IMG/VR virus record: IMGVR_UViG_3300043773_002546 | Span: 62,001 to 126,000 of that record | DNA from: a virus | Strand: one strand, 5' to 3' | DNA length: 64,000 nucleotides | Shown: positions 2,092 through 63,791 of the stretch, in pieces | How positions within the stretch are numbered: the first letter of the stretch is position 1 | Layout: each line of letters starts with the position of its first letter | The notes under the pieces: model-generated | The model's database searches: none | Seen by the model: only the letters and a program-made list of their open reading frames with translations | Told to the model about the DNA's origin: nothing | Translations under genes and position numbers: made by a program

Positions 2092-3153
2092 ATGACTATG
2101 ACAGCTCCTGGTTCCGTAGCGGTCGATCCGCTTAACCCCATGCTGTACAACCTCCTGGAGCACAAGTTCGGGGAGGTAAAGATCGCCAATGAAGGCGTCT
2201 CAGCCGATGTCCAGGAGCTGCCTGATCCGTTCCACCCGGGACGCACAATCACGCACTCCAACAGCTGGGGCGAGTATTACCGGATTAACTGTCCGTTTTG
2301 CAACGACGTCGGACACAAGCTCTGGATTAACCATCTTTACGGGGCCGAGTATCACAACGGTCGGCGCACGAACCTGCACCGCGCCATTTGCTACAAAAAC
2401 GACTGTCTTTCCGCGCCTGGCCGCCGCGAACAGCTCGAGATGCTCGTCTTTGGCCCCGGGCGCCCGCTGGTTAAGAAAATGCCTATTAAGATGGCCACCC
2501 AGGAGTTTACGCCCCTGGCGGCCTCTCCGCCGGGTGAAATTATCCCAGTGGACACGCTCTACGAAGGACACGCGGCTCTGGAGTATCTTCGGCAGAGGAA
2601 CTTCGACCCGGGCGAACTGACCAGGGACTTCGGCATCGGGTTTTGCACCCGCACAACTCAAGAGCGCGTTCGCATCGCCGCCGGGCGGCTCTACATCCCT
2701 ATCAGCTTTCACGGCAAACTTGTGGGCTGGCAGGCTCGCGCTGTTGGTGACGGCAACAAGAACCTCAAGTACTTCAACTGCCCGGGCACCAGCAAAAGTC
2801 GCATGCTCTACAACTACGACCGCGCCAGCCAACAGCCGTTTGTAATTGTCGTTGAGGGTGTGCCCAGCGTGTGGCGTCTCGGCGCGGCTGCTGTGTGTCT
2901 CTTCGGCAAAACGATGAGCCTTTGGCAGCGGACCACGATCAGCACGACTTGGTCTGGCAAGCCGGTGTTCATGATGCTCGACAACGACGCCCGCGGTGAG
3001 ATGGAACAGGCCATTCAACTTTTGAAACAGGCGCAAGTTAACGTCATTCCTGTGTATTTGCCCGATAAGCGCGATCCGGCGGATTACCCGCGGGAAGAAA
3101 TAATCTCATTGATATCAATGACCGGCGCCGCCGCCGGGCACGCACCGTTTTAG
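2092..3153 (+). CDS. DNA primase, zinc-binding plus TOPRIM domains
   Basis: About 353 residues. A Cys/His cluster near residues 66-105 (CPFC, then H and a CYKNDC stretch) looks like a CHC2-type zinc finger that reads template DNA. Downstream, VVEG near residue 254 and LDNDARG near 297 are the Glu and Asp-x-Asp signatures of a TOPRIM catalytic core. Function by family: synthesis of RNA primers together with the preceding helicase. The start is not certain: ATG 2092 or 2098 are possible, both with a weak ribosome site, and the gene is probably coupled to the helicase stop at 2083. The 3' end carries a dispersed TGATATCA palindrome read as SLISMT. Confidence 0.85.
   Translation: MTMTAPGSVAVDPLNPMLYNLLEHKFGEVKIANEGVSADVQELPDPFHPGRTITHSNSWGEYYRINCPFCNDVGHKLWINHLYGAEYHNGRRTNLHRAICYKNDCLSAPGRREQLEMLVFGPGRPLVKKMPIKMATQEFTPLAASPPGEIIPVDTLYEGHAALEYLRQRNFDPGELTRDFGIGFCTRTTQERVRIAAGRLYIPISFHGKLVGWQARAVGDGNKNLKYFNCPGTSKSRMLYNYDRASQQPFVIVVEGVPSVWRLGAAAVCLFGKTMSLWQRTTISTTWSGKPVFMMLDNDARGEMEQAIQLLKQAQVNVIPVYLPDKRDPADYPREEIISLISMTGAAAGHAPF
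3107..3120. repeat. Dispersed palindrome copy 1 (TGATATCA core)
   Basis: CATTGATATCAATG, a perfect 14-base palindrome inside the 3' end of the primase gene, 43 bases before the next start codon. Member of the 14-copy family described in the findings. Confidence 0.85.
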
Positions 3154-3162
3154 GAGCAACCC

Positions 3163-3522
3163 ATGGGTAACCTGACCACCATGACGATCTACAACGACGG
3201 GATCGATCAGATCCCCAAGCACGCGCAGGAATTTGCGGACGCCCTGTATGCGGCGGCGCAGTCCACCGACCCGCAGACAATCCGCGTGGGCAATCACTGG
3301 AATCTAGTGAAAGTTCATCCTTTTCGGCATGCGGACACCAGCACGATCTACGTGCACATGGGCAACACGGTTTGCGAAATGAGCGGCTGGAGCAAAGAGA
3401 CTCGGCGCCTCATGCGTGAAAGCCCCGCGTTCTTCGAGAAGATGCTTAACTTCATGCGCGGCGTGGTGGAAAACCTGAGCGCTGATTTCAAGAAACTCCA
3501 AGAAGAGAAAGTAACCGCATGA
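3163..3522 (+). CDS. Hypothetical protein in replication operon
   Basis: 119 residues with a good ribosome site (AGGAG) ahead of the ATG. The protein ends in a predicted amphipathic helix rich in Lys and Glu and has no transmembrane segment. I do not recognise a family. It lies between primase and DNA polymerase and its stop overlaps the polymerase start (ATGA), so a replication accessory role is plausible, but this is context only. Confidence 0.75.
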   Translation: MGNLTTMTIYNDGIDQIPKHAQEFADALYAAAQSTDPQTIRVGNHWNLVKVHPFRHADTSTIYVHMGNTVCEMSGWSKETRRLMRESPAFFEKMLNFMRGVVENLSADFKKLQEEKVTA

Positions 3523-10615: not shown

Positions 10616-11761
10616 ATGCCAGGGATGGCGACAAGGCGCAGTGTGTTTGCACCGGTCACGGCGCTGGCCTTTTCGGCAGACCAGCTCGCCGACCTCAAGA
10701 GCTTCCTTACGCGGCGAAGCGACCAGACCGAGGTCGTGCCGATTTCCGATGCCGATCAGCTCCTAATGGCTGCCGACGGCCGGTTGGTTGAAAGCGGTTA
10801 TCGCTTTAACTACATCGGCTTCATGCAGCTGACCAATGCCATGGTCACCGGCCTGGGCTCGGTCTTTAAGGAGCTCTCCGGGGAAGTGGCCCGCCGCCAG
10901 CGCGACAACCCCACGCCTGACCTGGCCGCCGCGGTGAGCATTTACAACACCGTCGTGCGGGCCCAGATCGACCGCCTCCGGGAACGAAGCCTCCTGGTGG
11001 ATCACCGCGAACGGGTCATCGACGGCTTCCTGGGGCTGGACTACCGCCTCCTGGACAACAGCGCCTTTCTGGACCTGGTAATTCACGAGGTCGCTGTCTG
11101 CCAGCCCAGGGCGCAGTACTACCGGGCGGAGCTCATCGGCCGCGAGCTAATGCTCTACTTTCTCGACCACGGTTCACGGCGCAATGATATCATTGAGAAT
11201 TCTGCTCACGTGTTCACCCGCGGCTGGCAGTTTGTGAACGGCGAGGGGACTAACCGCGCCGTGAACGGCACCAGCTGCGTGTTCACGAAGTTTGGCCTGG
11301 GAGTCGAGCCCAAGGCCAGCAAGCGGGGCTTTCTCCAGCACAGCGGGGCGGACCTGGCCGGTCGAGCCGCGGCGCTGGTTTCCCGCGCCGCCGCTTCAGA
11401 GATTGATATGGATCTGCTGGCGCAGGGCGTGCGCAAGCTCGTGGCGGTCAACCTGGGCTTCACCGAGAACGGGTTCACCGAGCACGTGGCCCGCGTCGCA
11501 GAATCCCTGCTACGGTTCAAGATCCCCGGCGAGGACGCCAAGCTGATCGCCAAAAACGCGGCCATGGTCGGCTCCGACCTCAAGCCGCGGGATTCCGTGG
11601 ACGTTTTTACCGACAAAGTGCTCAAGACCAGAACGGGATACGACCTGGTCTGCGCGTTGTTGCGACACAGCCGGGCCGTGGGGCACCTCGACGCCGTGCG
11701 TTATCAGCAGGCGGCGATGCGTTCTATGTACCCCGCGGCTCGCCGCACCCGAAAATCGTGA
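10616..11761 (+). CDS. Hypothetical protein, about 380 residues
   Basis: 381 residues, mixed alpha/beta composition, no membrane segment. The general look (a single compact domain whose middle contains LGLDYRLLDN and a C-terminal stretch of short helices) is reminiscent of DUF932-type phage/plasmid proteins, but I cannot confirm it. Ribosome site GAGGGG ahead of ATG 10616. A dispersed TGATATCA palindrome lies inside at 11182-11195. Confidence 0.75.
   Translation: MPGMATRRSVFAPVTALAFSADQLADLKSFLTRRSDQTEVVPISDADQLLMAADGRLVESGYRFNYIGFMQLTNAMVTGLGSVFKELSGEVARRQRDNPTPDLAAAVSIYNTVVRAQIDRLRERSLLVDHRERVIDGFLGLDYRLLDNSAFLDLVIHEVAVCQPRAQYYRAELIGRELMLYFLDHGSRRNDIIENSAHVFTRGWQFVNGEGTNRAVNGTSCVFTKFGLGVEPKASKRGFLQHSGADLAGRAAALVSRAAASEIDMDLLAQGVRKLVAVNLGFTENGFTEHVARVAESLLRFKIPGEDAKLIAKNAAMVGSDLKPRDSVDVFTDKVLKTRTGYDLVCALLRHSRAVGHLDAVRYQQAAMRSMYPAARRTRKS
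11182..11195. repeat. Dispersed palindrome copy 2 (TGATATCA core)
   Basis: CAATGATATCATTG, a perfect 14-base palindrome within a coding region. The flanking bases are the mirror variant (AAT/ATT) of copy 1, so the conserved part is WTGATATCAW. Confidence 0.8.
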
Positions 11762-15821: not shown

Positions 15822-16487
15822 GTGAAACGTGTTGTTTATTGCACGGCTGTATTCAACCGCCGTGAAAACTTTGAAATTCTGCTGGACAGCTACTTGGCGT
15901 TGCGCAAACTTCCCCGGAACACGCAGGACGTGCTGTGCGTCTACGACTGGGACGGCGAGCTCAATGATATCAATGAGATTGACGGCCTGGCTTATCAAGC
16001 AGGCCACCAGACTGGACCAATTAACCGCGCCGAAGCGCGCAACCGCGCGCTGGCAGTTGCCAAGGCGGCCCCCGACGAGCTTGTGTTTTTCGTCGATTGC
16101 GATATGGTGCTACCCACGGACTTTTCCGACCGAGTGCGTCATTTCGTGAAACCAGGTCACGCTTACTTTCCTGTCTGCTATTCGCTCTACCGTGGCTCCC
16201 CCGCGGTCGTTAAGGGCCACGGTCCGGCGCACACACCTGGCAAATCAGGCGCCAACGGCTGGTGGCGCGAAGCAGGCCGTGGCAACTGCGGTTTCGTACT
16301 TCAAGACTTTTTGGCCATTGGCGGCTGGGACGGCGCCCGCTGGGGCACAAACTACGGCCGCGAAGACGACGACGTCTTCTGGCGGGCCAAGGCTAAGCTC
16401 ACCATCCATCGCGAGTGGACGCAGAACTTTTTTCATCAGTGGCATCCGCGCGTGGCGGAACCACAGAATCCATCTATTACGAGGTAA
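15822..16487 (+). CDS. GT2/GT7-like glycosyltransferase
   Basis: 221 residues. GT-A fold: NRRENFEILLDSYL at the start, a VDCDM metal-binding motif near residue 91, and GGWDGARWGTNYGREDDDVFWRA near 165-188, the hallmark of galactosyltransferase/chondroitin-polymerase-type C-terminal regions. Metal-dependent transfer from a UDP-sugar is expected. GTG 15822 is the likely start, two bases after the upstream stop with GAGAAAG before it. A dispersed palindrome is encoded in-frame as LNDINE at 15960-15977. Confidence 0.75.
   Translation: MKRVVYCTAVFNRRENFEILLDSYLALRKLPRNTQDVLCVYDWDGELNDINEIDGLAYQAGHQTGPINRAEARNRALAVAKAAPDELVFFVDCDMVLPTDFSDRVRHFVKPGHAYFPVCYSLYRGSPAVVKGHGPAHTPGKSGANGWWREAGRGNCGFVLQDFLAIGGWDGARWGTNYGREDDDVFWRAKAKLTIHREWTQNFFHQWHPRVAEPQNPSITR
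15960..15977. repeat. Dispersed palindrome copy 3 (TGATATCA core)
   Basis: CTCAATGATATCAATGAG inside the glycosyltransferase gene, read as LNDINE. This variant also contains the direct repeat TCAATGA-TA-TCAATGA. Confidence 0.85.
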
Positions 16488-18481: not shown

Positions 18482-18922
18482 ATGAGCGAAGCATCTTCAG
18501 AGGCGGTCAACCCGCCCGCGCCCCAACACGCCTACTTCGCCGTCGTGCTCCACAGCGACGGCGCATTTGTTACCGAGGAGTTCGATTCGCTCGCAGCACT
18601 GGTTATTCGCCTCCGCGAGCTGGTCGACCGCGACGTCTCTGTGTCGTGCTTCACGGGCGCGCGGCTGGCAATCTCCAAGCCGCCGCTGCGCTACCTGATG
18701 ACGCCCGAGGGGAACCACGCGCTGTTCGAAGTGCCCGAGGCGCCCGAGCCCGATGACACCGGTTACCTGGGCGTGGACCCAATCCACATGGGCGACCCGC
18801 CCCAGCTAAAGATGCCCCAAGGCGCACGGCCCAGCCCCGGCGCGCCTGACGAATTTTTTGACGACCGCAACGACAACGTGCTGGGCGTTTTTGACAACGT
18901 GCTGCCTGACCCGGACAGCTAA
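18482..18922 (+). CDS. Hypothetical acidic protein
   Basis: 146 residues. Beta-alpha N-terminal domain, then a Pro/Asp-rich low-complexity C-terminal half. GAGGAGG precedes ATG 18482. Its TAA stop lies inside the GCTAAA box of the promoter-like element at 18918, so this gene ends where a new transcription unit seems to begin. Confidence 0.7.
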   Translation: MSEASSEAVNPPAPQHAYFAVVLHSDGAFVTEEFDSLAALVIRLRELVDRDVSVSCFTGARLAISKPPLRYLMTPEGNHALFEVPEAPEPDDTGYLGVDPIHMGDPPQLKMPQGARPSPGAPDEFFDDRNDNVLGVFDNVLPDPDS

Positions 18923-18951
18923 ACCGCGCGCGTTTGCCGGGCATATTTAAT
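18918..18951 (+). promoter_or_regulatory. Bipartite promoter-like element, copy 1
   Basis: GCTAAA-N7-CGTTTGCCGGGCATATTTAATG. The same arrangement recurs at 33801 and 40992 with the distance from GCTAAA to CGGGCATAT kept exactly. GCTAAA sits 17 bases upstream of CATATT, the normal -35/-10 distance. Confidence 0.65.
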
Positions 18952-25658: not shown

Positions 25659-25947
25659 CGCATTTGAAATTGCGCAACCCAGCGTAGATGCGCTTGCGAT
25701 TAGCGCGTTTTGTGACTTCGCCGCCGACTGGCTGGCCAGGGCGGGCATCCTGGGCGTCGGGCACACGGCCAACGGCCTGGCCTTGCGGATGCGCGACGGT
25801 AGCGAAAAGCTTTTGGTGAACTTGGAACTCGAGCCCACCGTTGCGGATACTCCGGCGGTCGGCATCGGCGTCAACGGCGTCAGCGCCAGGCAGGGGATCG
25901 GCGGCGGGGAAGCACCCAGCATCCGTATCACCGGCCGTTCTCAATGA
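25624..25947 (+). CDS. Hypothetical protein
   Basis: 107 residues, soluble, Gly-rich at the C-terminus. Starts inside the HD-domain gene with GAGAAG upstream. Its TGA stop is the TGA of palindrome copy 4. Confidence 0.65.
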   Translation: MAKSELLDAIRDAFEIAQPSVDALAISAFCDFAADWLARAGILGVGHTANGLALRMRDGSEKLLVNLELEPTVADTPAVGIGVNGVSARQGIGGGEAPSIRITGRSQ

Positions 25948-25957
25948 TATCAATGAG
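25940..25957. repeat. Dispersed palindrome copy 4 (TGATATCA core)
   Basis: CTCAATGATATCAATGAG at a gene boundary, containing the stop codon of the upstream gene and lying 17 bases before the thymidylate kinase start. Confidence 0.9.
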
Positions 25958-29589: not shown

Positions 29590-30644
29590 TGAGCGATCCA
29601 GCGCATGATCTGGCTCTGCTGCACCACGCGTTCTACGTCGGCGAACTAGAAGTAGGCCGCCGGGCGGCAGAGCGGTTGTTGCGCCAGGACCTGCCTGAAG
29701 ACAGCGCAACGCGGGCCCGCCACAACCGCACCTTCTACACACCGACGCTGGCCGAGCTGGGCCCGGTTGAATTCAGGCGCATTGATATCAAACCGGCTTA
29801 TCACGGTTGGAGCCTGTTCAACCCCACGCTCCTGAACAACAACGGCAAGCTCGTGGGACTGGTCCGCTCGAGCAACTACACCATGAAGGGCATGCAGTAC
29901 ATCATGCCGCCCGCGGACAAGGGCGTCATCCGCACCATCAGCATTTTCGTCGAGTACGCCCCAGACTTCAGCGTGGCCGCGTCTCATGCCTTGGCCGACC
30001 CCGACTACCCGCGGACAACCTTCGCCGTGGATGGCCTGGAGGATTGTCGCTTGTACGCTCGCGGCGACGCTCTTTATGTCTCGGCTACCGTGCGGAACTT
30101 TGCCCCCTATGACGGCAACTGCCGCATCGGCACGGCACGGCTGGACACGGCGGGGAAACGCTACTGCGAACTGGAGGTTCCCGCCGCGCCTGGCTCGCAG
30201 CACGAGAAGAACTGGATGCCGGTGATAGGCCAGGATTGCTGGCTTTATGCCTGCAATCAAAACGACAAAACTTTCTTGGCCCGCCGTAAAGGCGTTAACT
30301 GGGAACTTGTGAGCACGGGCCCGGCACCAATCGTGGCGCGCTCGTTTCGCGGTGGCGCGCAATTAGTGCCATTCGGCGGCGGTTATCTCTGCGCCATTCA
30401 CGAGGTTACGCACGGCGACAACAGACGGACTTATGAGCACCGGTTTGTGTGGTTTGACGATCAACTGCGCGTCAAGAAACTCAGCGCGCCTTTTTACTTT
30501 CGCAACAAACGGCAAATTGAGTTTGCGGCTGGCTTGGCCGTTATTGGCGATCAAGTCGTACTGTCGTTCGGCTATCAGGACAAAGAAGCGTGGCTGGCAA
30601 TTTTAAGCGCCCAGGCCGTTTCGGAACGATTGTCGCCGGTGTAA
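29589..30644 (+). CDS. GH130-like five-bladed propeller glycan enzyme
   Basis: 351 residues. A run of blade-like motifs matches GH130-type glycosidases/phosphorylases: FNPTLL near 79, EDCRLY near 152, EKNWMPV near 201, GGAQLVP near 256, THGDNRRTYEHRFVWFD near 276-292 and SAPFYF. These enzymes act on mannosides or transfer related sugars. Followed by two or three glycosyltransferases, so it may trim or sense the same glycan. Start overlaps the previous stop (TGATG). Confidence 0.6.
   Translation: MSDPAHDLALLHHAFYVGELEVGRRAAERLLRQDLPEDSATRARHNRTFYTPTLAELGPVEFRRIDIKPAYHGWSLFNPTLLNNNGKLVGLVRSSNYTMKGMQYIMPPADKGVIRTISIFVEYAPDFSVAASHALADPDYPRTTFAVDGLEDCRLYARGDALYVSATVRNFAPYDGNCRIGTARLDTAGKRYCELEVPAAPGSQHEKNWMPVIGQDCWLYACNQNDKTFLARRKGVNWELVSTGPAPIVARSFRGGAQLVPFGGGYLCAIHEVTHGDNRRTYEHRFVWFDDQLRVKKLSAPFYFRNKRQIEFAAGLAVIGDQVVLSFGYQDKEAWLAILSAQAVSERLSPV
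29780..29793. repeat. Dispersed palindrome copy 5 (TGATATCA core)
   Basis: CATTGATATCAAAC within the GH130-like gene, read as IDIKP. Shares the hybrid CATT...AAAC flanks with the copy at 38904. Confidence 0.7.
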
Positions 30645-31463: not shown

Positions 31464-33770
31464 ATGTCGCAGTTACAAGCATTTACAAACGTAGCCGGAC
31501 CCATAACGGTAGGGTTCAAGGGCGAGTTGGCGCGGCTGGCCGATCCGAACATCACGGACAAGGATACGGCCCACAGTTACTGCCCGGTATACGAGCAGGA
31601 ACTTGGGCGTTTGCGCCTAACCACAGGGCACGTGCTTGAAATTGGAGTGCAGCGCGGCGGTTCGGCCTGCATGTGGCTGCAGTATTTCGATTATGCAACT
31701 GTGCATGGCGTTGATATTTCGCCCAAACCGCAGTTGATGTTGCTGCACGATCCGCGCTACCAGCATCACCAAAAAGACGCCTACTCTGCAGATTTCGTTG
31801 CGTCTTTGCCGGACCTAATGGTAGCAATTGACGACGGGCCGCACACTGTCGAGTCGCAGCTGTCTTTTATTCGTCTGTACGGGCCAAAAATCGAACCGGC
31901 TGGTTTGCTAATCATCGAGGACATAGCGGCAGACGACGCTTTGCAACGCATCACAGCGCAGTTTGACGATCGCTGGGTCGTGCGCGTTTACGACCGTCGC
32001 GCGCTCACCAATCGGTTTGACGACGTAATACTGGTGGCGCAAAAAACGCAAGGTATGGTTGTGATGGTGGATGATCGCGGTTACGCGGATTTCATACAGG
32101 GCGCGGCCGCGCGGAACAAAGCTTTTGCCGACATGCACGGTCACGCGTTTCGGTTTTACCGTCCTGAAACCATAGTCTCTCCAGCGGGCCAGAAGCGGCA
32201 CCCAAGTTGGACAAAAATTATTGCCGTCGCGCACGCGCTACAGTCGGTTGATTGGGTTTTGTACATTGATTCTGACGCGGCCGTTGTCGCGCCGCGGCAA
32301 CCCGTCCCGATGCGCGAAAAATCTTGGTTCATTGCTGATCGGCCCTGGAACCGACAGTCTCCTAATGCGGGAATCTTTTTACTGCACAAGCGCGACTTAG
32401 CCTGGTTGCCGCAATGGTGGGAGTTTGACCTGCCCGAGCACGATAACAAACATTCCTGGGAGCAGGCGGCGTTGCAACGGTTGTGGGACACGTTACCGTT
32501 GGCGCTTTACAACGCGCCCCACGTGGAGATTGCTGACGAGCAGTGGGTGCGCCATTGCTATAACGAACAATCTAATCGCCGCAAGGATTTCTGCGTTGGC
32601 GCGCCCGTTGTGGCGCTGCCGGAGCCAATACCGTTTTCATGCACGCAACATGATGTTACGATTGGCGGCACTACATCTCCTTTTTACGCTCTCTGGAAAC
32701 AGCCACGCGCTATGAAAATCGCTGTTTACTCGCTGGCCAAGAACGAAGAGAAGCACGCTGCGGCCTGGGCGGAGTCTTGCAAAGAAGCTGACTACCGCGT
32801 GGTCACGGACACCGGTTCGGCCGACAAGACACCGGATATCCTGCGCGCAGCTGGCGTTAGTGTGTACACGGGCAACGTTGTGCCGTGGCGCTGGGACGAG
32901 GCCCATAACCTCTCCATGCACCATATACCCAGCGACGCCGACGTTTGCGTGCGCTTGGACTTGGACGAGCGTTTCAAACCTGGCTGGCGCGCGGCTATCG
33001 AGCAAGCCTGGAAGCCCGGCACGACCAAGCTACGGTACATGTACACCTGGAGCATGACGCCCGACGGTAAACCATTAAAGCGATTTCCCTCTGACCGCGT
33101 GCACAGTCGCTCGGGGTATCGCTGGACCGGAGCGACGCACGAAGGACTTGTGCGCTGGAATGGCGCGGAAGTATTCGCCTGGTCTGACGAGCTAGAAATT
33201 TTGCATCACCGCGATTTCGGCAAGAAACATAGCACAGACATGGAGCTCTTGCAGATCGCCGTGCGTGAAACGCCGCACGACGCTCGCATGTACTGGTATT
33301 TAGCGCGGCAAATGGACTATGAAAATCACACCGACACGGTCGCCACGTTTTTGAAGTACTTAGACATGCCCGGGGGTAGCTCAATCGAGCGAGCCTACGC
33401 TTGCCGCGTTTTGTCCCGTAGGCTGCCCGATAAAGCAGAATACTGGCTGCAGCGCGCCATTCAAGAAGATGCCGCTGGGCCTGATGGTTACTACGCCATG
33501 GCCAAATTGGCGCATCAAAATAAAAATCACTTAACAGCCTTCTACTACGGCAAGCAGGCCGCCGATAGAGCGGGCGCAAGCATGATGCACACCAGCGACA
33601 CAGAAGCGTTCAGCCACCTTCCGGCGGATATCACGAGCGTGAACGCGTTTCTCTTGGGGCTCAACAAAGAAGCCTTGCGCTACACCAAAATTGCGCTTGA
33701 GCGCAGCCCAAACGATGAGCGCCTCAAGCGCAATCTTGAGCAACTCTCGGAACAGCTCAAAGCTCATTGA
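31464..33770 (+). CDS. Methyltransferase-GT34-GT2-TPR fusion protein
   Basis: 768 residues, at least three enzymes in one chain. Residues about 45-160: class I SAM methyltransferase of the Methyltransf_24/cephalosporin-hydroxylase type (VLEIGVQRGGSACMW near 57, VDIS, AIDDGPHTVESQLSF, LLIIED). About 195-385: GT34-like galactosyl/mannosyltransferase (WVLYIDSDAAVV near 264, AGIFLLHKRDLAWL, HSWEQAALQ). About 416-570: GT2-type transferase (SLAKNEEKHAAAWAESC, TGSADKTPDIL, LDLDERF near 499). The rest looks like TPR-type helical repeats. Such chains build and cap a short glycan. The TGA stop lies inside palindrome copy 6. Confidence 0.75.
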   Translation: MSQLQAFTNVAGPITVGFKGELARLADPNITDKDTAHSYCPVYEQELGRLRLTTGHVLEIGVQRGGSACMWLQYFDYATVHGVDISPKPQLMLLHDPRYQHHQKDAYSADFVASLPDLMVAIDDGPHTVESQLSFIRLYGPKIEPAGLLIIEDIAADDALQRITAQFDDRWVVRVYDRRALTNRFDDVILVAQKTQGMVVMVDDRGYADFIQGAAARNKAFADMHGHAFRFYRPETIVSPAGQKRHPSWTKIIAVAHALQSVDWVLYIDSDAAVVAPRQPVPMREKSWFIADRPWNRQSPNAGIFLLHKRDLAWLPQWWEFDLPEHDNKHSWEQAALQRLWDTLPLALYNAPHVEIADEQWVRHCYNEQSNRRKDFCVGAPVVALPEPIPFSCTQHDVTIGGTTSPFYALWKQPRAMKIAVYSLAKNEEKHAAAWAESCKEADYRVVTDTGSADKTPDILRAAGVSVYTGNVVPWRWDEAHNLSMHHIPSDADVCVRLDLDERFKPGWRAAIEQAWKPGTTKLRYMYTWSMTPDGKPLKRFPSDRVHSRSGYRWTGATHEGLVRWNGAEVFAWSDELEILHHRDFGKKHSTDMELLQIAVRETPHDARMYWYLARQMDYENHTDTVATFLKYLDMPGGSSIERAYACRVLSRRLPDKAEYWLQRAIQEDAAGPDGYYAMAKLAHQNKNHLTAFYYGKQAADRAGASMMHTSDTEAFSHLPADITSVNAFLLGLNKEALRYTKIALERSPNDERLKRNLEQLSEQLKAH

Positions 33771-33780
33771 TATCAATGAG
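33763..33780. repeat. Dispersed palindrome copy 6 (perfect 18-mer)
   Basis: CTCATTGATATCAATGAG, a perfect 18-base palindrome that includes the stop codon of the fusion gene and lies 21 bases before the promoter-like element at 33801. Confidence 0.92.
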
Positions 33781-33800: not shown

Positions 33801-33834
33801 GCTAAATCTGGCCCGTTTGGCGGGCATATTTAGT
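33801..33834 (+). promoter_or_regulatory. Bipartite promoter-like element, copy 2
   Basis: GCTAAA-N7-CGTTTGGCGGGCATATTTAGTA, nearly identical to the copy at 18918. Lies in a 100-base gap ahead of the HTH protein gene. Confidence 0.7.
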
Positions 33835-33870: not shown

Positions 33871-34422
33871 GTGCGCGCGTATAGTTTGAAAAAAGTCAAA
33901 GAAATGGTCGCGAGCTACAACAAGACCAAATCTGCCGATAGCGTCGCCGAAGAATTGAATTTGCCGCTTCGGGATGTGAAGCAGATCCTGGTCTGGTTGC
34001 ACCGGCATGACCCGATAAATAAAGAAGCCGACAAAGGGCGTTCGTTTTTGCTTCGGCTGCCCATCAATCAAATTTGGGCGCAGTTCTTGTACATACAGGA
34101 CGTAGCGGCGCACACTGCCGCGGCGTGCCTGAACTGGCCGCTTGAGCGTTTGCTGGAAACATGCGGTGGCCCTGAAGAGTGGGCGAAGCACTCCGGGCGC
34201 AAGCCAATCAAGCTCCATGTAAACGACATCTGGAACGGCCGCGAAAGTCAAGAACGACGGCCGGAAGATCCGACAGTAGAAGAGATCGAATCCCGTAAGC
34301 GCGAAGTTCACGCGATGTGGGACAGCAATAACAGCAGCATGCGCGGCGGCGTGCCCAAGGAGCCGCAACGCGTAGAGGTCCGGGAATACGTCTACGACAA
34401 CCGGAACGGCACTTTTACGTAA
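33871..34422 (+). CDS. HTH-type DNA-binding protein
   Basis: 183 residues from GTG 33871, behind AAGGAGGAG. Residues about 18-40 (SADSVAEELNLPLRDVKQILVWL) read as a helix-turn-helix. The rest is basic with no clear second domain. Preceded in the same 100-base gap by a perfect 18-base palindrome and the promoter-like element, so it is the best local candidate for the regulator that binds the dispersed palindromes, perhaps autoregulated; this is inference. Confidence 0.65.
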   Translation: MRAYSLKKVKEMVASYNKTKSADSVAEELNLPLRDVKQILVWLHRHDPINKEADKGRSFLLRLPINQIWAQFLYIQDVAAHTAAACLNWPLERLLETCGGPEEWAKHSGRKPIKLHVNDIWNGRESQERRPEDPTVEEIESRKREVHAMWDSNNSSMRGGVPKEPQRVEVREYVYDNRNGTFT

Positions 34423-38903: not shown

Positions 38904-38919
38904 CTCATTGATATCAAAC
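38904..38919. repeat. Dispersed palindrome copy 7 (TGATATCA core)
   Basis: CTCATTGATATCAAAC in the 39-base gap before the next gene, immediately upstream of its AAGGAGG. Hybrid of the ATTG and TTTG flank types. Confidence 0.88.
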
Positions 38920-39986: not shown

Positions 39987-40335
39987 GGGGGCGAAAAGGT
40001 ATCGACGGGATGAAGAAAGTTTGGACTGCATGCCGTGGTTGATCGGTTGGCCACGTTAAAAGCCGATTACGTTTCTAGCTGGCGCTTACGCTCCCGCTCT
40101 CGCTGCCTAGTTTCTAGGTTCGCGAGTGGGGCTGCATGGGCCTCATTGCCCAATCATGCCGTGTCGTTTCGTTAAACGACTGATCTCGCCCAGAGAGAAA
40201 GGGCACGATGGTGGTAGCCCACCTGACGCCGATAATCGGCTGGCTTTGCCTGTAGTGTGAGCAACAACAGGATACGCATGTAGACGTCCTTACCAGGCAC
40301 ATCTCCGGACCCGGGTTCGATTCCCGGCGCCTCCA
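39987..40335 (+). ncRNA. ssrA: Transfer-messenger RNA (tmRNA)
   Basis: About 349 bases, one-piece type. 5' end GGGGGCG pairs with 3' CGCCTCC (one G-T) followed by discriminator A; CCA is not encoded. The region TGCATGCCG followed by GGTTGGCCACGTTAAAAGCCG matches the canonical 5' tmRNA core, and GCATGTAG plus GGGTTCGATTCCC match the 3' half and T arm. The tag frame ends GCT TAC GCT CCC GCT CTC GCT GCC TAG, giving YAPALAA; aligning the TAG triplet before the resume codon with E. coli (TAGTC-GCA) places resume at GGC, tag GAYAPALAA. Would rescue stalled ribosomes and tag proteins for ClpXP-type proteases. Confidence 0.92.
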
Positions 40336-40974: not shown

Positions 40975-40990
40975 CTCAATGATATCAATG
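40975..40990. repeat. Dispersed palindrome copy 8 (TGATATCA core)
   Basis: CTCAATGATATCAATG in an intergenic region, two bases before the GCTAAA box of promoter-like element copy 3. Confidence 0.9.
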
Positions 40991-40991: not shown

Positions 40992-41025
40992 GCTAAATAC
41001 TCTCTCGTTTCCGGGCATATCCAGT
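40992..41025 (+). promoter_or_regulatory. Bipartite promoter-like element, copy 3
   Basis: GCTAAA-N8-CGTTTCCGGGCATATCCAGTG. GCTAAA to CGGGCATAT distance equals that in the other two copies although the CGTTT block is shifted by one base. Confidence 0.7.
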
Positions 41026-41515: not shown

Positions 41516-43354
41516 ATGCCATTTAAGTCTGAAAAGCAGCGCAGGTTTCTCTGGGCCGAGCACCCCGAAATCGCCAAGCGCTGGGCCCGCAAGTACCCCG
41601 AGAGCAACAAAGGTCTGCCTATGTACGCCGAGAGTCCTGATAGCAAAGAAAAAGCGGCAGCCTTGGCGGTACTTGGCGGCGCCCTGGCAAAACACGCTGT
41701 TACGTTAACAACGAACCCAGCATCATATGAATCTGTGATAAACGACGACGGAACTATCAAGAAATCTAATGATGGCCTGGTTCGCGTCGAGCTCCCGAAG
41801 ACCGAGGGACCCACTTACGCCGGGCAAGAACAGGAAGCAGGCAAGGAAACCAGCTGCAAAAAGGATCTGGCGCCCAATAGCGAGAAAGTCCTGGATCTTA
41901 ACAATCCCGTGGCGGCCAAGCTCGCCACCGTGCTCTCGCACGCCCTGCGCGAAAAGCTCGAGCGGGAAAACGCGCTGGTCGAGGGACGCGATCCGCTTCA
42001 TGTCCCGCGTAACATGGGCATTAAGAGGTATGCCGTTGCCCCGCAGTTACACCAACTTCCCATGGGAATGCAGCCCCAAGCGCCCGCTCCGGCGCAAAAC
42101 CAGCCCAGCAATGGTCCGGTCGGCGGCGGTAATAATCCCCAGGCAAATCCGATTCAGGCGTTCGGCCCCTTAAGCGCGTCCGGCCAACTTAATGGCAACG
42201 CAGCGTTCGGCGTCAAGAACTCGCCGGACAGCTCCAAGACGTCTGCGTTTAATCCGCTGCCTGCGCTGCAAAAAGGCGTGGCGCGCTACGGCGAATTACT
42301 GACGGGTTCAAAGATTCCTCAGCTGGCGGCTAAATCTCGCCTGTCAGCTGATCATCTGGGCTCATTGGCTGGGCAATCGCCGTGGAACATGATCACCAGC
42401 CGCGCGCGACAGGCGCTGGCCGATGTGGGCGTTAACGCCGCGCAGCAAACCGTGCACGGCGCTGTCGATCTGGCAAAAGAAAAGGCGCTGTCCCGAGCCA
42501 CGCAACTGGGTACTGGCGCAGCTGGACTGGCTGGCGCTGGCTTGCTGGCGCATAGAGCCATGAACGCCAAACAAGCGGCCGAGAGCGGCGCCTGGACTCG
42601 CGCCGAAGGCAAGAACCCCGACGGCGGCCTGAACGCCAAGGGTCGGGCGAGTCTCAAAGCCCAGGGGCACGACATCAAAGCGCCAGTCACAGAGAGTAAT
42701 CCCAGTGGCGAGCGGGCGCAGCGGCAGAACTCGTTCTGCTCGCGCATGTGCGGCATGAAGAAGCACGAGACGGGCGCCAAGACTAAATCAGACCCAGACT
42801 CGCGCATTAACAAGTCGCTGCGCAAGTGGAACTGCAAATGCTCGAGCGCCTACGAGTTTGGCGCGCTGGCGTCGCGAGTTGCGCTCAATGATATCAATGA
42901 GAAATCGGCGGCCCGGGGCGACATGTTTCAGAAGATGATTAACTCTGGCGCCCTGAACTTCGTTTCGGGGCTCAGCGGGCGCACTCCAGGGCGCGCGACA
43001 GCAGGCATGGGCACAGCTGGCATGTCGCACGCCGGAAACCAAGCCAAGATCGTCGCTGATTTCATGCGGCGTGCTCGCGGCATGGTCCGCCCAGCGCAGC
43101 CTGCTGCTGCTGCGGCGCTGCCCGTGGCGGCCGCCAGTCAAGCCGCCAGCCGCGTGAGCCCGGATCTTTTGGCGGGTCTCAAGCAATTTGGCGCGAACAT
43201 CCGCAAGTCCAACCGCGGCAAGTATCTGGAAGGCGTCATGGACCTCCCAATCATGAGCCCCAGAGTGCGCGAGCTATTTCACGGGGCGCCGCCGTCTGCG
43301 CCGTTTGGTGCGCTGCCTTCTTTGGCGGCCACGCTACGGGGTCTGCAGCCGTGA
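41516..43354 (+). CDS. Virion-like protein with DUF6321-type module
   Basis: 612 residues. Starts with KSEKQRRFLWAEHPEIAK, a short basic module I have seen at the N-terminus of structural proteins of very large phages. Residues about 355-440 hold WTRAEGKNPDGGLNAKGRAS, then FCSRMCGM and LRKWNCKC, which is the recurrent DUF6321-type phage motif. Remaining parts are Ala/Gly/Gln-rich and probably elongated. Likely a virion or head-maturation protein. Palindrome copy 9 is encoded in-frame as LNDINE. Ends overlapping a lipoprotein start. Confidence 0.6.
   Translation: MPFKSEKQRRFLWAEHPEIAKRWARKYPESNKGLPMYAESPDSKEKAAALAVLGGALAKHAVTLTTNPASYESVINDDGTIKKSNDGLVRVELPKTEGPTYAGQEQEAGKETSCKKDLAPNSEKVLDLNNPVAAKLATVLSHALREKLERENALVEGRDPLHVPRNMGIKRYAVAPQLHQLPMGMQPQAPAPAQNQPSNGPVGGGNNPQANPIQAFGPLSASGQLNGNAAFGVKNSPDSSKTSAFNPLPALQKGVARYGELLTGSKIPQLAAKSRLSADHLGSLAGQSPWNMITSRARQALADVGVNAAQQTVHGAVDLAKEKALSRATQLGTGAAGLAGAGLLAHRAMNAKQAAESGAWTRAEGKNPDGGLNAKGRASLKAQGHDIKAPVTESNPSGERAQRQNSFCSRMCGMKKHETGAKTKSDPDSRINKSLRKWNCKCSSAYEFGALASRVALNDINEKSAARGDMFQKMINSGALNFVSGLSGRTPGRATAGMGTAGMSHAGNQAKIVADFMRRARGMVRPAQPAAAAALPVAAASQAASRVSPDLLAGLKQFGANIRKSNRGKYLEGVMDLPIMSPRVRELFHGAPPSAPFGALPSLAATLRGLQP
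42884..42901. repeat. Dispersed palindrome copy 9 (TGATATCA core)
   Basis: CTCAATGATATCAATGAG inside the virion-like gene, read as LNDINE, identical in sequence and reading frame to copy 3. Confidence 0.88.
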
Positions 43355-44489: not shown

Positions 44490-46430
44490 ATGCTTGATCC
44501 CATTCCCGCCTACTACGCGCAGAAGTTTGCGGCCGCGCAAAACGCCGACGTCAGTCTGCGCTTTCAGCCCGACTACACCCCAGAGCAGCTCGAGCGCCTG
44601 GGCGTGTACGACGCGCTGTACCGCGGTAAGAGCCCCAGACTCGCCAGCCTGGGCGAATGGAAGCCCGAATGGATCTCTGAGCATGATCCCAAGGGCTGGG
44701 CGCAGTGGTACAAGCGCTACGCCGCTGGCCGCCGAATCGAGGGCGAAGACGACCGGCAGATGAAGCGCTGGCTGAGCTTTAAATCACGCCACGGCGGGCC
44801 GTTTAGCAAGAACCCCACGCCGAGACGGGGCTGGGCGCTGCGCAACTGGGGCATTGATCCCAGCAAGCTGGTGCCAGACCGGGCGCAAGAGATCAACGAG
44901 CTGCTAGACGAGCATCAACGCAAGGCTATGCAAAAATACGTGCAGGAGAAAGTCAGCGAGCTCCTGCCCGAGATTCAGCTCCAAGAGCATCAGCAGCGCG
45001 TGGCTGATCGCGTAGCCGACGAAGACCCGCGCCTGCTGGTCTATCACGGCCTGGGCTCTGGTAAGTCTCTTTCAGCGCTCGCTGCTGCCGAAATGGCACG
45101 CAGAAATTCCGGGAGCCAATATGGCATAGTCGTTCCTGCAAGTTTGCGGGGCAACTTCCAGAAAGAAGTTAAGAAGTTCACCCGAAACTCCAATCCGGAG
45201 ATCATGAGTTACACGGGCTTAGCGCTCGGCAAGCGCTTTCAGCAGCCGCCAGAGACCGTGGTCATGGACGAGGCGCAAAGATTACGTAATCCTGGCGCCG
45301 CAGCAACGCAGGGAGCTGAGGAAATCGCGCGCCAGGCCAAACGGCTCGTGCTGCTGTCGGGCACGCCCATTACCAACTCGCCGACAGACCTCGCCTCATT
45401 GATGTCATTGCTCGATAACAAACCGATGTCGCCGCAGGACTTTGAGAAGCGCTACATTGGCTACAAGAAAAAGTTTCCCGGGTTTGTTAACTGGCTGCGC
45501 GGCGCCGAATGGGGCGAAGAGCCGTATGTCAAAAACGAGAAAGAGCTCCGCGAGAGACTCAAGGGCAAAGTTGACTATCAGCCCAGCAAGACTCCCCAGG
45601 GCGTGACTGTCAACGAAGAGACGGTGAAAGTTCCGCTGAGTTCTGAGCAAAGTAAAATTCAAAAAGCCATTCGCACGCAGATTCCGCCCGGCTTTCTCTG
45701 GAAACTAGATAAAGAGTTTCCGCTGTCGCGCGATGAGCTCAAGAAACTGAATTCTTTTCTTACGGGCCTGCGCCAAGTTTCGCTGTCCACGCAGCCGTTT
45801 CGCGTGGACAAAGATCCGCTCAAAGCTTTTGATCAGTCCAGCAAGCTTCGCGAGGCTATGAAGCGCCTGCGCGAAAACCTGGACGCGGATCCCCGTAAAA
45901 AAGCCATCATCTACTCGAACTTTATAGATTCGGGAATTCAGCCCTACGCCAAAGCCCTCGAGCGCGACAAGATTCCCTATGGCATCTTTCACGGCGGCGT
46001 GCCCGTCAAGGCCCGCCAAGAGGCCCTCAAGCAGTACAACGAGGGCAAGCTCCGCGCGCTCTTGCTGGGGCCCGCCGCCGCCGAGGGCATCTCCACGAAG
46101 GGTACGAGTTTAATTCAGCTCTTGGATCCCTACTGGCACGAGTCCCGAACGCAGCAGGCCCGCGGGCGTGGTTTGCGGTTTGATAGTCACGCGGGGCTGC
46201 CTGAAGAGCTCAAGAACGTTGCCGTGCAGCGCTTTCTCTCGGCTAGCGAGGAACCGGGCGTATTTAGCAAGTACGTGCTGGGCAAGCGCCGTCAGCGGAC
46301 CGGAGACGAAGTGTTGCAGCACCTCTCCAACGACAAAGAAAAGCTTAACGAGGCGTTCCGTAAGATTTTGCGCGAAGTTGGCTCAGAAAAACACAAGCCA
46401 ACGCCTGACGAAGAAAACACACCTCATTGA
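44490..46430 (+). CDS. SNF2-type helicase with N-terminal QWY-GRR module
   Basis: 646 residues. Residues about 20-125 include DPKGWAQWYKRYAAGRR, later DDRQMKRW and ALRNWGIDP, resembling a small module known from giant-virus and algal proteins (W-x-QWY-x-RY-x-x-GRR). Residues about 170-640 are an SF2/SNF2 ATPase: Walker A GLGSGKS near 187, VVMDEAQRL near 258, SGTPITNSP near 289, then IFHGG, GPAAAEGIST and QQARGRGLRFD near 555. Predicted dsDNA translocase; virion or transcription-related roles are both seen in phages. GTG 44484 is an alternative start. Stop lies in palindrome copy 10. Confidence 0.8.
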   Translation: MLDPIPAYYAQKFAAAQNADVSLRFQPDYTPEQLERLGVYDALYRGKSPRLASLGEWKPEWISEHDPKGWAQWYKRYAAGRRIEGEDDRQMKRWLSFKSRHGGPFSKNPTPRRGWALRNWGIDPSKLVPDRAQEINELLDEHQRKAMQKYVQEKVSELLPEIQLQEHQQRVADRVADEDPRLLVYHGLGSGKSLSALAAAEMARRNSGSQYGIVVPASLRGNFQKEVKKFTRNSNPEIMSYTGLALGKRFQQPPETVVMDEAQRLRNPGAAATQGAEEIARQAKRLVLLSGTPITNSPTDLASLMSLLDNKPMSPQDFEKRYIGYKKKFPGFVNWLRGAEWGEEPYVKNEKELRERLKGKVDYQPSKTPQGVTVNEETVKVPLSSEQSKIQKAIRTQIPPGFLWKLDKEFPLSRDELKKLNSFLTGLRQVSLSTQPFRVDKDPLKAFDQSSKLREAMKRLRENLDADPRKKAIIYSNFIDSGIQPYAKALERDKIPYGIFHGGVPVKARQEALKQYNEGKLRALLLGPAAAEGISTKGTSLIQLLDPYWHESRTQQARGRGLRFDSHAGLPEELKNVAVQRFLSASEEPGVFSKYVLGKRRQRTGDEVLQHLSNDKEKLNEAFRKILREVGSEKHKPTPDEENTPH

Positions 46431-46440
46431 TATCAATGAG
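46423..46440. repeat. Dispersed palindrome copy 10 (perfect 18-mer)
   Basis: CTCATTGATATCAATGAG, identical to copy 6 and again containing the stop codon (CAT-TGA) of the upstream gene. Lies 89 bases before the fibre gene. Confidence 0.92.
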
Positions 46441-46528: not shown

Positions 46529-49500
46529 ATGCCCACGCCGATCACCCGCATCTTTCGTTTGATTCGTTTGCTTCGCGTCCGGCGTGACGCTGCCAATAGC
46601 ACCGATGGCGCGCCGACGAATCTGCGCCCCGGTGAGCTGGCGTTTGGCGACACGGAAAGCACGCTGTACCTCGGCAAGACCGACGGAACAGTGGCCGCGT
46701 TTGGCGAAGGCGGCGGTGGCGGCTCTGGCGCCACGGGGCCTACTGGCCCAGTGGGCACCAACGGCGCGACCGGGCCTACTGGCCCTCAAGCCGAGACGGG
46801 CGCAACTGGCGCGACCGGCCCTCAAGGCGAGACGGGTTCAATTGGCGCGACCGGACCCCAAGGCGAGACGGGTTCAATTGGCGCGACTGGACCCCAGGGC
46901 GAAACTGGTTTAACTGGCCCGGCGGGTTCCAGCGTGTACACCTGGCGCGGCGAGTGGGACAACACGACAAGCTATAACGCGAACGACGTCGTGTCTTACA
47001 ACGGCGCGAGCTACATCGCGACGACGTCCGCGAGTTCAGGCAGCGGCGACCCGGTGACGAACACAAGCGCCTGGCAGCTGCTGGCACAAGCGGGCGCTAC
47101 CGGCCCCAACGGCGCCACGGGCACGAGCTTTACGTGGCGCGGCGAATGGAGCTCAAGCGCCGAGTACTACGTTAACGACGTGGTGTACTACGGCGGCAGC
47201 GCCTGGATTGCGACGACCACGACGTCGAATCAGACTCCGGCTAACGTGCCCGGAGCTTCTTGGGCGCTGATGACGCAAACCACGGGCGACACCGGGCCGA
47301 CTGGTCCGACGGGCGAAACTGGTCCCACGGGCCCGACGAGCCTGGTCTGGCGCGGCGAGTGGAACAGCGGCACGCCGTACTATGCCAACGACGTGGTGTT
47401 TTATTCCGGCGCGTCGTATGTCGCCACAGACTACAACACGAGTTCCGCGCCGACGAGCGGCATGTACTGGAACGTGCTCGTGCAGACCAGCGGCGACACG
47501 GGACCGACGGGCGAAACCGGTCCGACAGGCGCAGGCTCGAACATGGTCGAAGCAGGCGCGGGCACTGGCAGTCTTGTCGGCCTGCCGTCGGCCAATAGCA
47601 ACAGCGCCAACGGAAATTACAGCGCCGTAGGCGGCGGTGCGAGCAACACAGCTGCAGTTAGTTATTCTGCTGTTTTTGGTGGCAGCGCTAACGTGGCCTC
47701 CGGCGACACGCACGCTGCTGTGTTTGCTGGTCAGTGGAACGCGGCGTTAGGTCCGGCTGCCGCGATTTGCGCTGGGTTTTCCAACACCGCCAGCGGTTCG
47801 TATAGCTTTATCGGCGCCGGGCAGTCTAACGTCGTCGACGGTAAATGGGGCGTCATCGGCGGCGGTTCGAGCAACAACGCGGGCGGCGGCATCGACAGTT
47901 GGAGCGCCACGGTTGGCGGCGGCAAGTTCAACACCGCGAGTAATACCTACAGCACGGTCAGTGGCGGCTATGGCAACGCCGCCAACGGGCAATACAGCGC
48001 CGTCAGCGGCGGCTTGCTCAATGCCGCCAGCGGTACGGCTAGCGCCGTCGGCGGCGGCCAGCGCAACACCGCCAGCGCCTACTACAGCGCCACGGTTGGC
48101 GGCGGCTATGGCAACACCGCTCTCGGCAACTACAGCGCCGTCGGCGGCGGCAAGAGCAACGCCGCCAACGGAAATTACAGCGCCGTGGGCGGCGGCTTTC
48201 AAAACGTCACCAGTAATTCCGCCTACAACACCGTGGGCGGTGGCGCAATCAACAACGCTACTGCGGAGGGCAGCACCGTAGCGGGCGGAGGATGGTACGA
48301 CTCCGACACAGCCGAGATCGTAGGCAACACAGCCGGTGGGGCCATCAGCAGCGTCGGCGGCGGCGCGCGCAATTTTGCACTGGGCCTGGCCAGCACTGTG
48401 AGCGGCGGCACGCGCAACACCGCCAGCGGCGACTACACTACCATCAGCGGCGGTAAGCTGAACGCGGCCTCGGGCACCGGCGCCACGGTCGCGGGCGGTG
48501 GTCGGTTTAATGCGAGCGGCCCTAATCCCGAAGGCAACACGGCTGCTGGCAATTACAGCTTTGTGGGCGGCGGCATCGGCAACATCGCCCACAACCCCTA
48601 CAGCACCGTGGGCGGGGGATACAAAAACGAAGCTGTGGGCGAGGAATCCACGGTATCTGGCGGCAGGTACAACGACGCAGGCGCGACGCAGAGCACTATA
48701 GCGGGCGGAGAAAGTAACGGGGCTAACGCCTATTGCAGTTCCGTGGGCGGCGGAAGTCAAAATTATGCTAATGGTTATTGTTCCGTCATCGGCGGCGGTA
48801 TCTTGAACAACGCTGGCGGCGACCACACCACCGTCGGCGGTGGCTACCAAAACACCGCCAGCGGCAATCGAAGCACTGTCGGCGGTGGCTCCCAAAACAC
48901 CGCCACCGGCCAATCCGCCACGGTTGGCGGCGGCTATAAAAACACCGCCAGCGGCTACTACAGCGCCGTCAGTGGCGGTCGGCAAAACACCGCCAGCGCC
49001 TACTACAGCGCCGTGGGCGGCGGCTATAAAAACACCGCCACCGCCCGCTATAGTTTCGCCAGCGGCAGCTATTCCGCCGTCGCGCACTATAGCGCGCAGG
49101 CGCACGCCGCGGGCCGTTTCGCGAGCTCTGGTGACGCGCAAAAACTCACGCTCGTAGCGCGCTGCGAAACTACCGACGCCACGGCAAATCAGGTGCTGTA
49201 TCTAGACGGCGCTGACGCAACCGCGCGGTTGGTGCTCCCCGCTAATACGACCTGGGTATTTGATATCAAACTCAGCGCAAGCAACGTCACGGACGGCGCT
49301 GGAGCGGGCTGGCACATTCGCGGTGTGATTCGGCGAAATGCCTCCAACAGCACCGTGCTTGTGGGCAGCAATATCGTCGAAGGTTGGACGGAGTCGGCTA
49401 TGAGCGGTGCGGCAGTAAGCGCTGTGGCTGACAATACAAACGAGGCGCTTGAGCTGCGCGTCACGGGTTTAGCCAGCAAAACAATTCGTTGGGTTGCCGT

Positions 49501-51589: not shown

Positions 51590-51601
51590 TTTGATATCAA
51601 A
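51590..51601. repeat. Dispersed palindrome copy 12 (TTTGATATCAAA)
   Basis: Intergenic, ending six bases before the TTGACA of the promoter at 51608, a classic place for an activator or repressor site. Confidence 0.85.
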
Positions 51602-51607: not shown

Positions 51608-51635
51608 TTGACAGGTTTTTGCGCCGCGCTATTCT
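51608..51635 (+). promoter_or_regulatory. Sigma70-like promoter of sulfotransferase gene
   Basis: TTGACA, 16-base spacer, TATTCT. The expected transcription start near 51642 leaves almost no leader before ATG 51643. Confidence 0.7.
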
Positions 51636-52866: not shown

Positions 52867-52903
52867 GTCGCTCAAAGATATCTATTCACGTAGGTATCGG
52901 TAT

Positions 52904-55885: not shown

Positions 55886-55891
55886 GCGCAA

Positions 55892-55904
55892 TTTGATATC
55901 ATTG
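55892..55904. repeat. Dispersed palindrome copy 13 (TGATATCA core)
   Basis: TTTGATATCATTG in the 44-base gap between the metalloprotease-like gene and the next gene. Confidence 0.82.
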
Positions 55905-56586: not shown

Positions 56587-56613
56587 CGCACAAAGATATC
56601 AATGGAGTTAAGC

Positions 56614-62741: not shown

Positions 62742-62769
62742 TTGACCCGATAACAATACGCGCTACAGT
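62742..62769 (+). promoter_or_regulatory. Sigma70-like promoter overlapping hairpin
   Basis: TTGACC, 16-base spacer, TACAGT. The start of transcription would fall at about 62776, inside the 5' arm of the following hairpin. Confidence 0.65.
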
Positions 62770-62815
62770 ACTCCTCACGGTTGGGAATCACTCCCTCCGT
62801 GAGGAGTATTTTTTT
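62769..62815 (+). terminator. Terminator/SD-sequestering hairpin
   Basis: TACTCCTCACGG (62769-62780) pairs perfectly with CCGTGAGGAGTA (62797-62808), followed by seven T. The GAGGAG in the 3' arm is the only Shine-Dalgarno for the GTG at 62816, so in read-through transcripts the site would be buried. Confidence 0.85.
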
Positions 62816-63463
62816 GTGATTGCCACGGACGCGCGATACGAAACAGTCACAGTTACGTTCACAGACGAAGAGCGAGAGCTTATTGCTCATCACGCCGAGC
62901 AGGCCACGCTGCCGGTCGGCCGGTCTAAGATCTTTTGCGGCGACCAGGAAAATCTCGACCGGCGCGAGTTTGAGCGCAACGAAAACCAGCACACCGGCAT
63001 GGCCTGTGAAGCGGCGTTCTACAAGTGGGCCGCGCCGCTGGGTTCGGGCGACTTCGCGGCTTTTTTGGCCAACCGTGAGCTGCGCAACTCCGACAAGTTC
63101 ACGGGCGACAAGGGCATAGACTGCGTTCTGCCCGAGAACCTGCGCGTGGACATTAAAGGCTCCGAGCCGCAGGCTGGCAAGAGCCTGGACGTGTACACGG
63201 CGCTGAACTTGCATTTGACGCACGAGCGCGACAAGTCCCTGGCAGAAATACAGGACATCGCCTACGTGTTTGCCGTGACGCAGCGAGAACTGTCTGCGCC
63301 GTGCCGGGCGCCGAAATTTGTAATTCTTTCAGGCTGGCTCTGGGGCCGCGAGCTGTATGGCCGTGAAGATAAGAAATCTTTAGCGGGCTGGTCGGCCAAA
63401 GGCTGGTCATTACACAGAATGCACGAGTTTCCGGGCGTTGCGCAACTTGCAAACTGCGCTTAA
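62816..63463 (+). CDS. PD-(D/E)xK nuclease-like protein
   Basis: 215 residues from GTG 62816, which follows the hairpin T-run; GAGGAG nine bases upstream lies in the hairpin arm. DKGIDCVLPENLRVDIKGSE near residues 98-117 resembles the D ... D-x-K site of restriction-endonuclease-fold nucleases. A nuclease would explain the tight control. No partner methyltransferase is adjacent. Assignment rests on one motif. Confidence 0.5.
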   Translation: MIATDARYETVTVTFTDEERELIAHHAEQATLPVGRSKIFCGDQENLDRREFERNENQHTGMACEAAFYKWAAPLGSGDFAAFLANRELRNSDKFTGDKGIDCVLPENLRVDIKGSEPQAGKSLDVYTALNLHLTHERDKSLAEIQDIAYVFAVTQRELSAPCRAPKFVILSGWLWGRELYGREDKKSLAGWSAKGWSLHRMHEFPGVAQLANCA

Positions 63464-63509
63464 AATCGCGGTCGCTGGCATTAATTATTCGCGCAGTCAC
63501 GGAGGACAC

Positions 63510-63791
63510 ATGCGGGAGAGACGCAGGGAGGCGGTTCGACACTGGCGCCGCTCGCTCCACGCGGATGCGCCGAGTCGTGAAAAGTACCTGCGGAAGCGCG
63601 CGGTCGCATCGCCCGCGCTTCGCACTCCATCGGACAGCCGGAGTGCCGGGATGCTGCGGTTTGATATCAAATCGCGCTTAACGCGGGTTGCTGGGTTTCC
63701 AACGCCGTCCGAGCGCCTCCTTCGCCCCAACGCAACACGAGCACAAGCAGAGCACGAGCGGCTCTGCTGCCCGCGCCCAGCCCGTTTTTGA
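63510..63791 (+). CDS. Small Arg-rich protein
   Basis: 93 residues, over one fifth Arg, no acidic patches. CACGGAGGAC gives an excellent ribosome site seven bases before ATG 63510. Palindrome copy 14 is encoded as FDIK. A nucleic-acid-binding role is possible; no family recognised. Confidence 0.55.
   Translation: MRERRREAVRHWRRSLHADAPSREKYLRKRAVASPALRTPSDSRSAGMLRFDIKSRLTRVAGFPTPSERLLRPNATRAQAEHERLCCPRPARF
63661..63672. repeat. Dispersed palindrome copy 14 (TTTGATATCAAA)
   Basis: TTTGATATCAAA within the small Arg-rich gene, 129 bases before the ferritin-like gene. Confidence 0.82.

Follow-up and report, generated by a model that had tools for sequence, protein, structure and literature searches.

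Why a short palindrome should recur along the genome of a large uncultivated phage, and what might read it, is the question raised by the window studied here, a stretch of 64,000 nucleotides that corresponds to positions 62001-126000 of the 197,309-bp source record, G000. Coordinates below are those of the window unless they are prefixed with G000. A preliminary description of the window reported 14 exact copies of TGATATCA where about one or fewer would be expected by chance. This was borne out, as 100 dinucleotide shuffles gave 0.27 ± 0.51 copies and none reached 14; the sites themselves were real, but the start positions given for them were 1-5 bases too low. When the count was extended to the whole G000 record, 31 copies were found against 0.7-1.1 under order-1 and order-2 models, making TGATATCA the strongest 8-mer palindrome of the genome, and enrichment was seen in relatives too. 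All 31 copies read WTGATATCAW, as had been stated for the window, and the reversed control pattern gave none. With an extended definition of the site (GATATC with A or T on both sides and at least 5 A/T among the six bases that make up the three flanking positions on each side), G000 contains 40 sites, whereas Markov simulations gave 2.2 (order 3) and 6.4 (order 5). The enrichment of the palindrome is therefore confirmed and is stronger than the earlier description could know.

The site is dyad-symmetric. Read outward, the G000 half-site is ATC-A-A-T-G-A-G, giving the consensus CTCATTGATATCAATGAG, and perfect 18-mers of this sequence occur at 33768 and 46428. Together with the half-site profile, these fit an operator of ~14-20 bp. 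Degenerate members are also present, mostly with AAAGATATC half-sites; two in the window are CTCAAAGATATCTATTC at 52877-52882, upstream of tRNA-Met, and ACAAAGATATCAATGGA at 56595-56600, between genes at a boundary that is conserved in the sister phage G024. The 18-mer was found in 13 other IMG/VR contigs with a few copies each, which is about what chance predicts.

G000 has nearly all of its genes on one strand. It encodes a family-A DNA polymerase, a DnaB-like helicase, a primase and a UvsX-like recombinase, structural proteins that include a tail fibre and a tail sheath, and tRNAs and a tmRNA. The tmRNA gene lies at 39987-40335 and its tag, GAYAPALAA, is a possible aid to host assignment. 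RNA polymerase genes lie at G000:142154-149408, with products that are a beta/beta-prime fusion and the C-terminal part of beta-prime, and a sigma70-family protein matching SigA is encoded at G000:182099-182914. This combination looks unusual, because jumbo phages with recognisable sigma factors are usually without their own RNA polymerase (2020 review, PMC7598289). Among the conserved small proteins, one has a match to Pfam CsrA (E = 8e-20), and the small protein g11 (G000:8048-8245) reads like CsrA. Three words are absent from the genome, GCCGGC (173 expected), ATGCAT (35 expected) and ACTAGT (14 expected), which suggests restriction avoidance. No DNA similarity of G000 to cultured phages was found, and its DNA polymerase is only about 24% identical to those of known phages. 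A DNA polymerase search of IMG/VR yielded 28 relatives, several of about 200 kb. Orthologous proteins of the sister phage G024 have a median identity to those of G000 of about 60%.

In the window, six of the exact copies lie inside genes. These are the copy CTCATTGATATCAATGA at 3110-3117, 36 nt before the stop codon of its gene, those at 11185-11192 (372-aa gene), 29783-29790 (351-aa gene) and 49261-49268 (1002-aa tail-fibre gene), and two of the form CTCAATGATATCAATGAG at 15965-15972 and 42889-42896 (612-aa gene). Three copies supply the TGA stop codon of the upstream gene, as had been noted: CTCAATGATATCAATGAG at 25945-25952, where the boundary is conserved in G024, and the two perfect 18-mers at 33768-33775 and 46428-46435, the latter ending an SNF2-like helicase gene. 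The remaining copies are intergenic and lie at 38909-38916 (11 nt past a stop), 40980-40987, 51592-51599, 55894-55901 and 63662-63669, the last of these upstream of a ferritin-like gene; the boundaries at 55894 and 63662 are conserved in G024. The view that most copies sit at gene boundaries holds only in part: in the window, intergenic copies and those overlapping a stop codon together make up 8 of 14, and genome-wide 18 of the 40 extended sites are intergenic and 22 are inside genes. Genes were called with a simple in-house program, which makes the numbers of intergenic sites approximate. Intergenic sites are strongly enriched relative to the 13.5% non-coding fraction (P = 1e-6), and in 26 of 37 cases from G000 and G024 together the stop codon upstream is closer to the site than the start codon downstream (P = 0.01). 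A single role at gene boundaries is not supported, given the 22 intragenic sites, several of which occupy the same exact coding position in relatives.

Sites occur at a frequency of about one per 4-5 kb in G000, late structural region included, and their spacing is more even than random. The coefficient of variation (CV) was 0.66 in G000 (P = 0.007, or P = 0.001 with the coding/intergenic class of each site preserved), 0.59 in G024 and 0.60 in the relative G042 (both P < 0.001), and close pairs of sites are few in all three genomes. With only the 31 exact G000 copies the evenness is borderline (P = 0.05), and even spacing was not clear in G021, G040, G020 and G044.

Some sites adjoin promoter-like sequences. 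The phage promoter-like element occurs on the plus strand of the window as GCTAAAC-N14-CGGGCATAT at 18918-18946 and as GCTAAAT-N14-CGGGCATAT at 33801-33829 and 40992-41020. Its two parts, CTAAA and GGGCATAT, are 15 bases apart in 28 of 28 strict matches from 11 genomes, and relaxed matches number 5-10 per genome on the coding strand compared to 0-1 on the other. The element was present in each of the 11 related genomes of the first comparison, even in those without sites, and resembles sigma28-type promoters (TAAA-N15-GCCGATAA). Two palindromes had been reported to adjoin this element, and both do: the GATATC at 33768 starts 33 bp upstream of it and that at 40980 starts 12 bp upstream. Likewise, the copy at 51592 was correctly placed beside a sigma70-like promoter (TTGACA-N16-TATTCT, 51608-51635, plus strand), lying immediately upstream, 15 bp from the TTGACA. 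The eight site-bearing genomes contain 64 promoter elements; a palindrome lies 0-40 bp upstream of 5 of them, compared to 0.42 expected, and three of these five palindromes lie 12-13 bp upstream of the element. Neither the 2 elements found in G042 nor the 3 in G044 had a palindrome in such a position. Since a few sites lie just upstream of promoters, a minority is placed like regulatory operators.

Copies of TGATATCA alone number 0 to 15 per relative. The GATATC core is common among the relatives and the flanks differ, with T-GATATC-A in G000 and A-GATATC-T in G024 and G042. G024 has 42 copies of AGATATCT against 1.1 expected, and 51 sites by the extended definition; G042, a further relative, has 40 sites of its type in 154 kb. 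There are 25-34 sites with mixed flanks in G017, G020, G021, G033 and G040, and 15 sites in G016; in one large clade the sites are weaker and mixed. G015, G030 and G038 are site-poor (0-4 sites), and such lineages occur in more than one place in the DNA polymerase tree. No convincing alternative enriched palindrome was found in the site-less relatives; TAGCTA probably belongs to the promoter element.

Site positions in G000 and G024 were compared by projection through aligned orthologous codons. For ten of the 40 sites in G000 the nearest G024 site is no more than 20 nt away, compared to 0.56 in shifted controls, and five coincide exactly, compared to 0.01 expected. The preliminary description had pointed to positional conservation where coding sequence diverges as a check on its proposal, and it is seen here despite a median protein identity of only ~60%. 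At exact coding positions the core is common and the flanks usually match each phage's own motif. For example, AAT-GAT-ATC-AAT (NDIN) and AAT-GAT-ATC-ATT (NDII) in G000 each become AAA-GAT-ATC-TAT (KDIY) in G024, and the CTCAATGATATCAATGAG at 15965 has AAAGATATCTAT at the same position in G024. The coding position of the 11185 palindrome also bears a site in G024, G017, G020, G021 and G033. An intergenic site after gene 46 occurs in seven genomes, and the SNF2-like helicase gene carries a site in seven relatives, the G000 site lying about 200 nt further downstream, at the stop codon. Since positions are kept and flanks have shifted, selection acts on the sites as DNA, both inside genes and between them.

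The best candidate for the protein that reads the sites is g81 (376 aa, G000:47256-48386), which is encoded outside the window. A profile made from its alignment matched helix-turn-helix (HTH) regulators in the PDB (4ich, E = 1e-4), with weaker matches to CI and 434 repressors; single homologues gave sub-threshold matches to HTH_3, HTH_31 and Phage_CI_repr. In the structure model, five helices span residues 16-82 (pLDDT 81-86), and the predicted N-terminal domain resembles the lambda/434 repressor fold. Towards the C terminus, similarity is to deoxyhypusine synthase, ArgZ and LOR/SDH enzymes. A domain of the deoxyhypusine-synthase/ArgZ type is fused here, in a family of phages, to an HTH domain like that of the lambda repressor. 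As a single query against IMG/VR, g81 gave no match, while its alignment as query did find matches, and G042 was found through g81. Every site-bearing full genome that was examined has the gene. Between G000 and G024 the HTH of g81 retains just 30% identity, compared to the ortholog median of 60%. The co-occurrence of gene and sites across genomes is mixed, as g81 with a diverged HTH is also found in the site-less or site-poor G015, G030, G045 and G047. This argues against g81 as the binder, as does the identity of only 41% between the HTHs of G024 and G042, which have close motifs. No consensus site was found at g81's own promoter. The assignment of g81 as binder is put forward tentatively, and we consider it less likely than not.

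Other proteins fared worse. The HTH protein at 33871, which had been proposed as the partner of the palindrome, has a weak 25% match in G024 and no full-length match elsewhere; an iterated search with it drew in wrong-frame reading frames and was not relied on. Phyletic profiling gave g189 (82 aa) as the best protein absent from site-less genomes, and it was rejected as acidic in appearance and devoid of a DNA-binding signature. An HNH-HTH protein (G000:126326-126946) occurs only in G000, and g166 is ferritin-like by eye rather than HTH. The suggestion of a partition-site family was not sustained either: no PF02195 match (ParB) was found at E <= 10, and the sites are evenly spread rather than clustered near one locus. 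An actin-like protein is encoded at G000:129003-130007 (Volactin family, E = 4e-65) and in several relatives. Segregation of the actin type (ParMRC) was rejected, as this gene is missing from G024, with its 51 sites, and present in the site-poor G030.

The explanation we favour, at about even chances, is that the palindromes are operators of one dimeric, probably phage-encoded HTH protein that acts on transcription genome-wide. A homodimer would bind the dyad sites over about 12-18 bp around the GATATC core, would most likely be encoded by the phage itself, and would occupy about 40 sites along the genome, one every 4-5 kb. Bound at gene ends and inside genes, the dimers might form stoperator-like roadblocks to elongating polymerase that would limit read-through, and initiation might be affected at the minority of sites that directly precede -35 elements. 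Since nearly all genes point in one direction, genome-wide control of transcription is the most likely job for such a protein. Of the network first suggested for these sites, the network behaviour, the conserved positions with shifting flanks and the few promoter-adjacent sites have stood, whereas partition, the 33871 partner and a pure boundary role have not. Several observations count against operators: over half of the sites are intragenic, the spacing is more even than operators need, and only 3 of the 40 G000 sites adjoin a promoter element. Being symmetric, the site also has no orientation that could follow transcription, unlike an L5 stoperator, which counts against a stoperator-like action. 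A lysogeny repressor would have no obvious purpose, since no integrase was seen among the Pfam matches listed and no ParB match was found.

The same tiling could instead serve the chromosome itself, in which case a phage protein would fold, condense, package or position it via the palindromes and effects on transcription would be secondary. MatP/matS-type systems, which use dispersed sites, are the model for this somewhat unlikely but substantial alternative. It is consistent with the even spacing and few close pairs in G000, G024 and G042, with intragenic sites conserved as exactly as intergenic ones, and with sites in the late structural region. However, it predicts no intergenic enrichment, gene-end bias or fixed promoter distance, although relaxed coding constraint accounts for part of the intergenic enrichment; moreover, evenness is not clear in the G021/G040/G020 clade, the search for ParB found no partner and G024 lacks the actin homologue. 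Operators and an organising array explain the even spacing and the intragenic half equally well, and both may hold.

That no phage protein is tied firmly to the sites would suit a host-encoded regulator or nucleoid protein exploited by the phage, with the motif shifts reflecting different hosts. We regard this as improbable, as G000 and G024 keep positions and change the motif, which is simpler with a binder co-evolving in the phage. Recognition sites for DNA processing, whether Chi-like protection from an exonuclease or self-marking for a phage nuclease or methyltransferase, would account for a Chi-like spacing of one per 4-5 kb through coding and non-coding DNA alike, and the phage does have recombination and nuclease genes. 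Promoter-adjacent sites and long flanking symmetry nevertheless fit a dimeric repressor-type protein better, and the Chi sites and uptake words known to us are asymmetric, leaving this explanation with a small probability. An artefact of composition or codon use, or a recurring peptide motif, might be suspected where GAT ATC reads Asp-Ile in many coding copies. This is very improbable and was refuted by the shuffle counts and Markov simulations, which lie far below the observed numbers (6 against 40 in order-5 simulations); in addition, coding copies in G024 are in different frames and 18 of the 40 G000 sites are non-coding.

A few temperate phages are known to have dispersed repressor networks. 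Here such a network is seen in uncultivated ~200-kb phages with their own multisubunit RNA polymerase and sigma factor, with sites that are palindromic, even and largely intragenic, and with a specificity that changes between sister phages while the places are kept. As a concrete system, it would allow the co-evolution of a phage regulator with dozens of sites simultaneously to be tested, and it bears on the way in which a genome with almost all of its genes on one strand might be subdivided. Speculatively, evenly tiled sites and a fast-evolving phage protein, perhaps g81, could form a chromatin-like or insulating system that divides the one-directional 200-kb genome into ~5-kb domains; we think this unlikely, and know of no description of a phage genome organised by a chromatin-like system of tiled sites.

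Cluster A mycobacteriophages such as L5 and Bxb1 carry dozens of dispersed repressor sites, few of them at promoters, and the stoperator consensus differs between related phages (PMC6550527, PMC9283540). G000 is similar in its many dispersed copies (40 compared to 2-6 simulated) and in a consensus that shifts between G000 and G024/G042 while sites stay syntenic. In contrast, L5 stoperators are 13-mers that lack symmetry and follow the direction of transcription, and they have been described from promoter regions and short intergenic spaces in temperate genomes (PMC6550527, PMC9283540), whereas those of G000 are palindromic with no orientation relative to transcription, 55% are inside genes and they are evenly tiled over ~200 kb. 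Nor were lysogeny genes found in G000, with no integrase among the Pfam matches listed (proteins under 420 aa) and no ParB. With neither the asymmetry nor the promoter and intergenic placement, the palindrome array falls outside the L5 stoperator family. Operators of the lambda, P22 and 434 CI class, which serve homodimeric HTH proteins, are likewise dyad-symmetric, and the candidate g81 of G000 has an HTH domain like that of the lambda repressor. The operator of the lambda-class repressor P22 c2 is CATTTAAGATATCTTAAATA, which contains the AGATATCT core (PMC9976882) that is also common to G024-type sites; a GATATC-type core is therefore natural for lambda-class repressors. Classical CI-class operators sit together in just one or two control regions, at divergent promoters, unlike the ~40 dispersed and evenly spaced G000 sites, and the candidate g81 differs from these repressors in its deoxyhypusine-synthase/ArgZ-like C-terminal domain. 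In SPbeta, a conserved short element, SPBRE, is repeated round a large genome and read by the master repressor MrpR (PMC10516654), but there are about ten sites, these are in promoter regions, and MrpR has a tyrosine-recombinase fold. Collectively, the palindrome array of G000 is best filed as a new variant of the dispersed phage operator networks.
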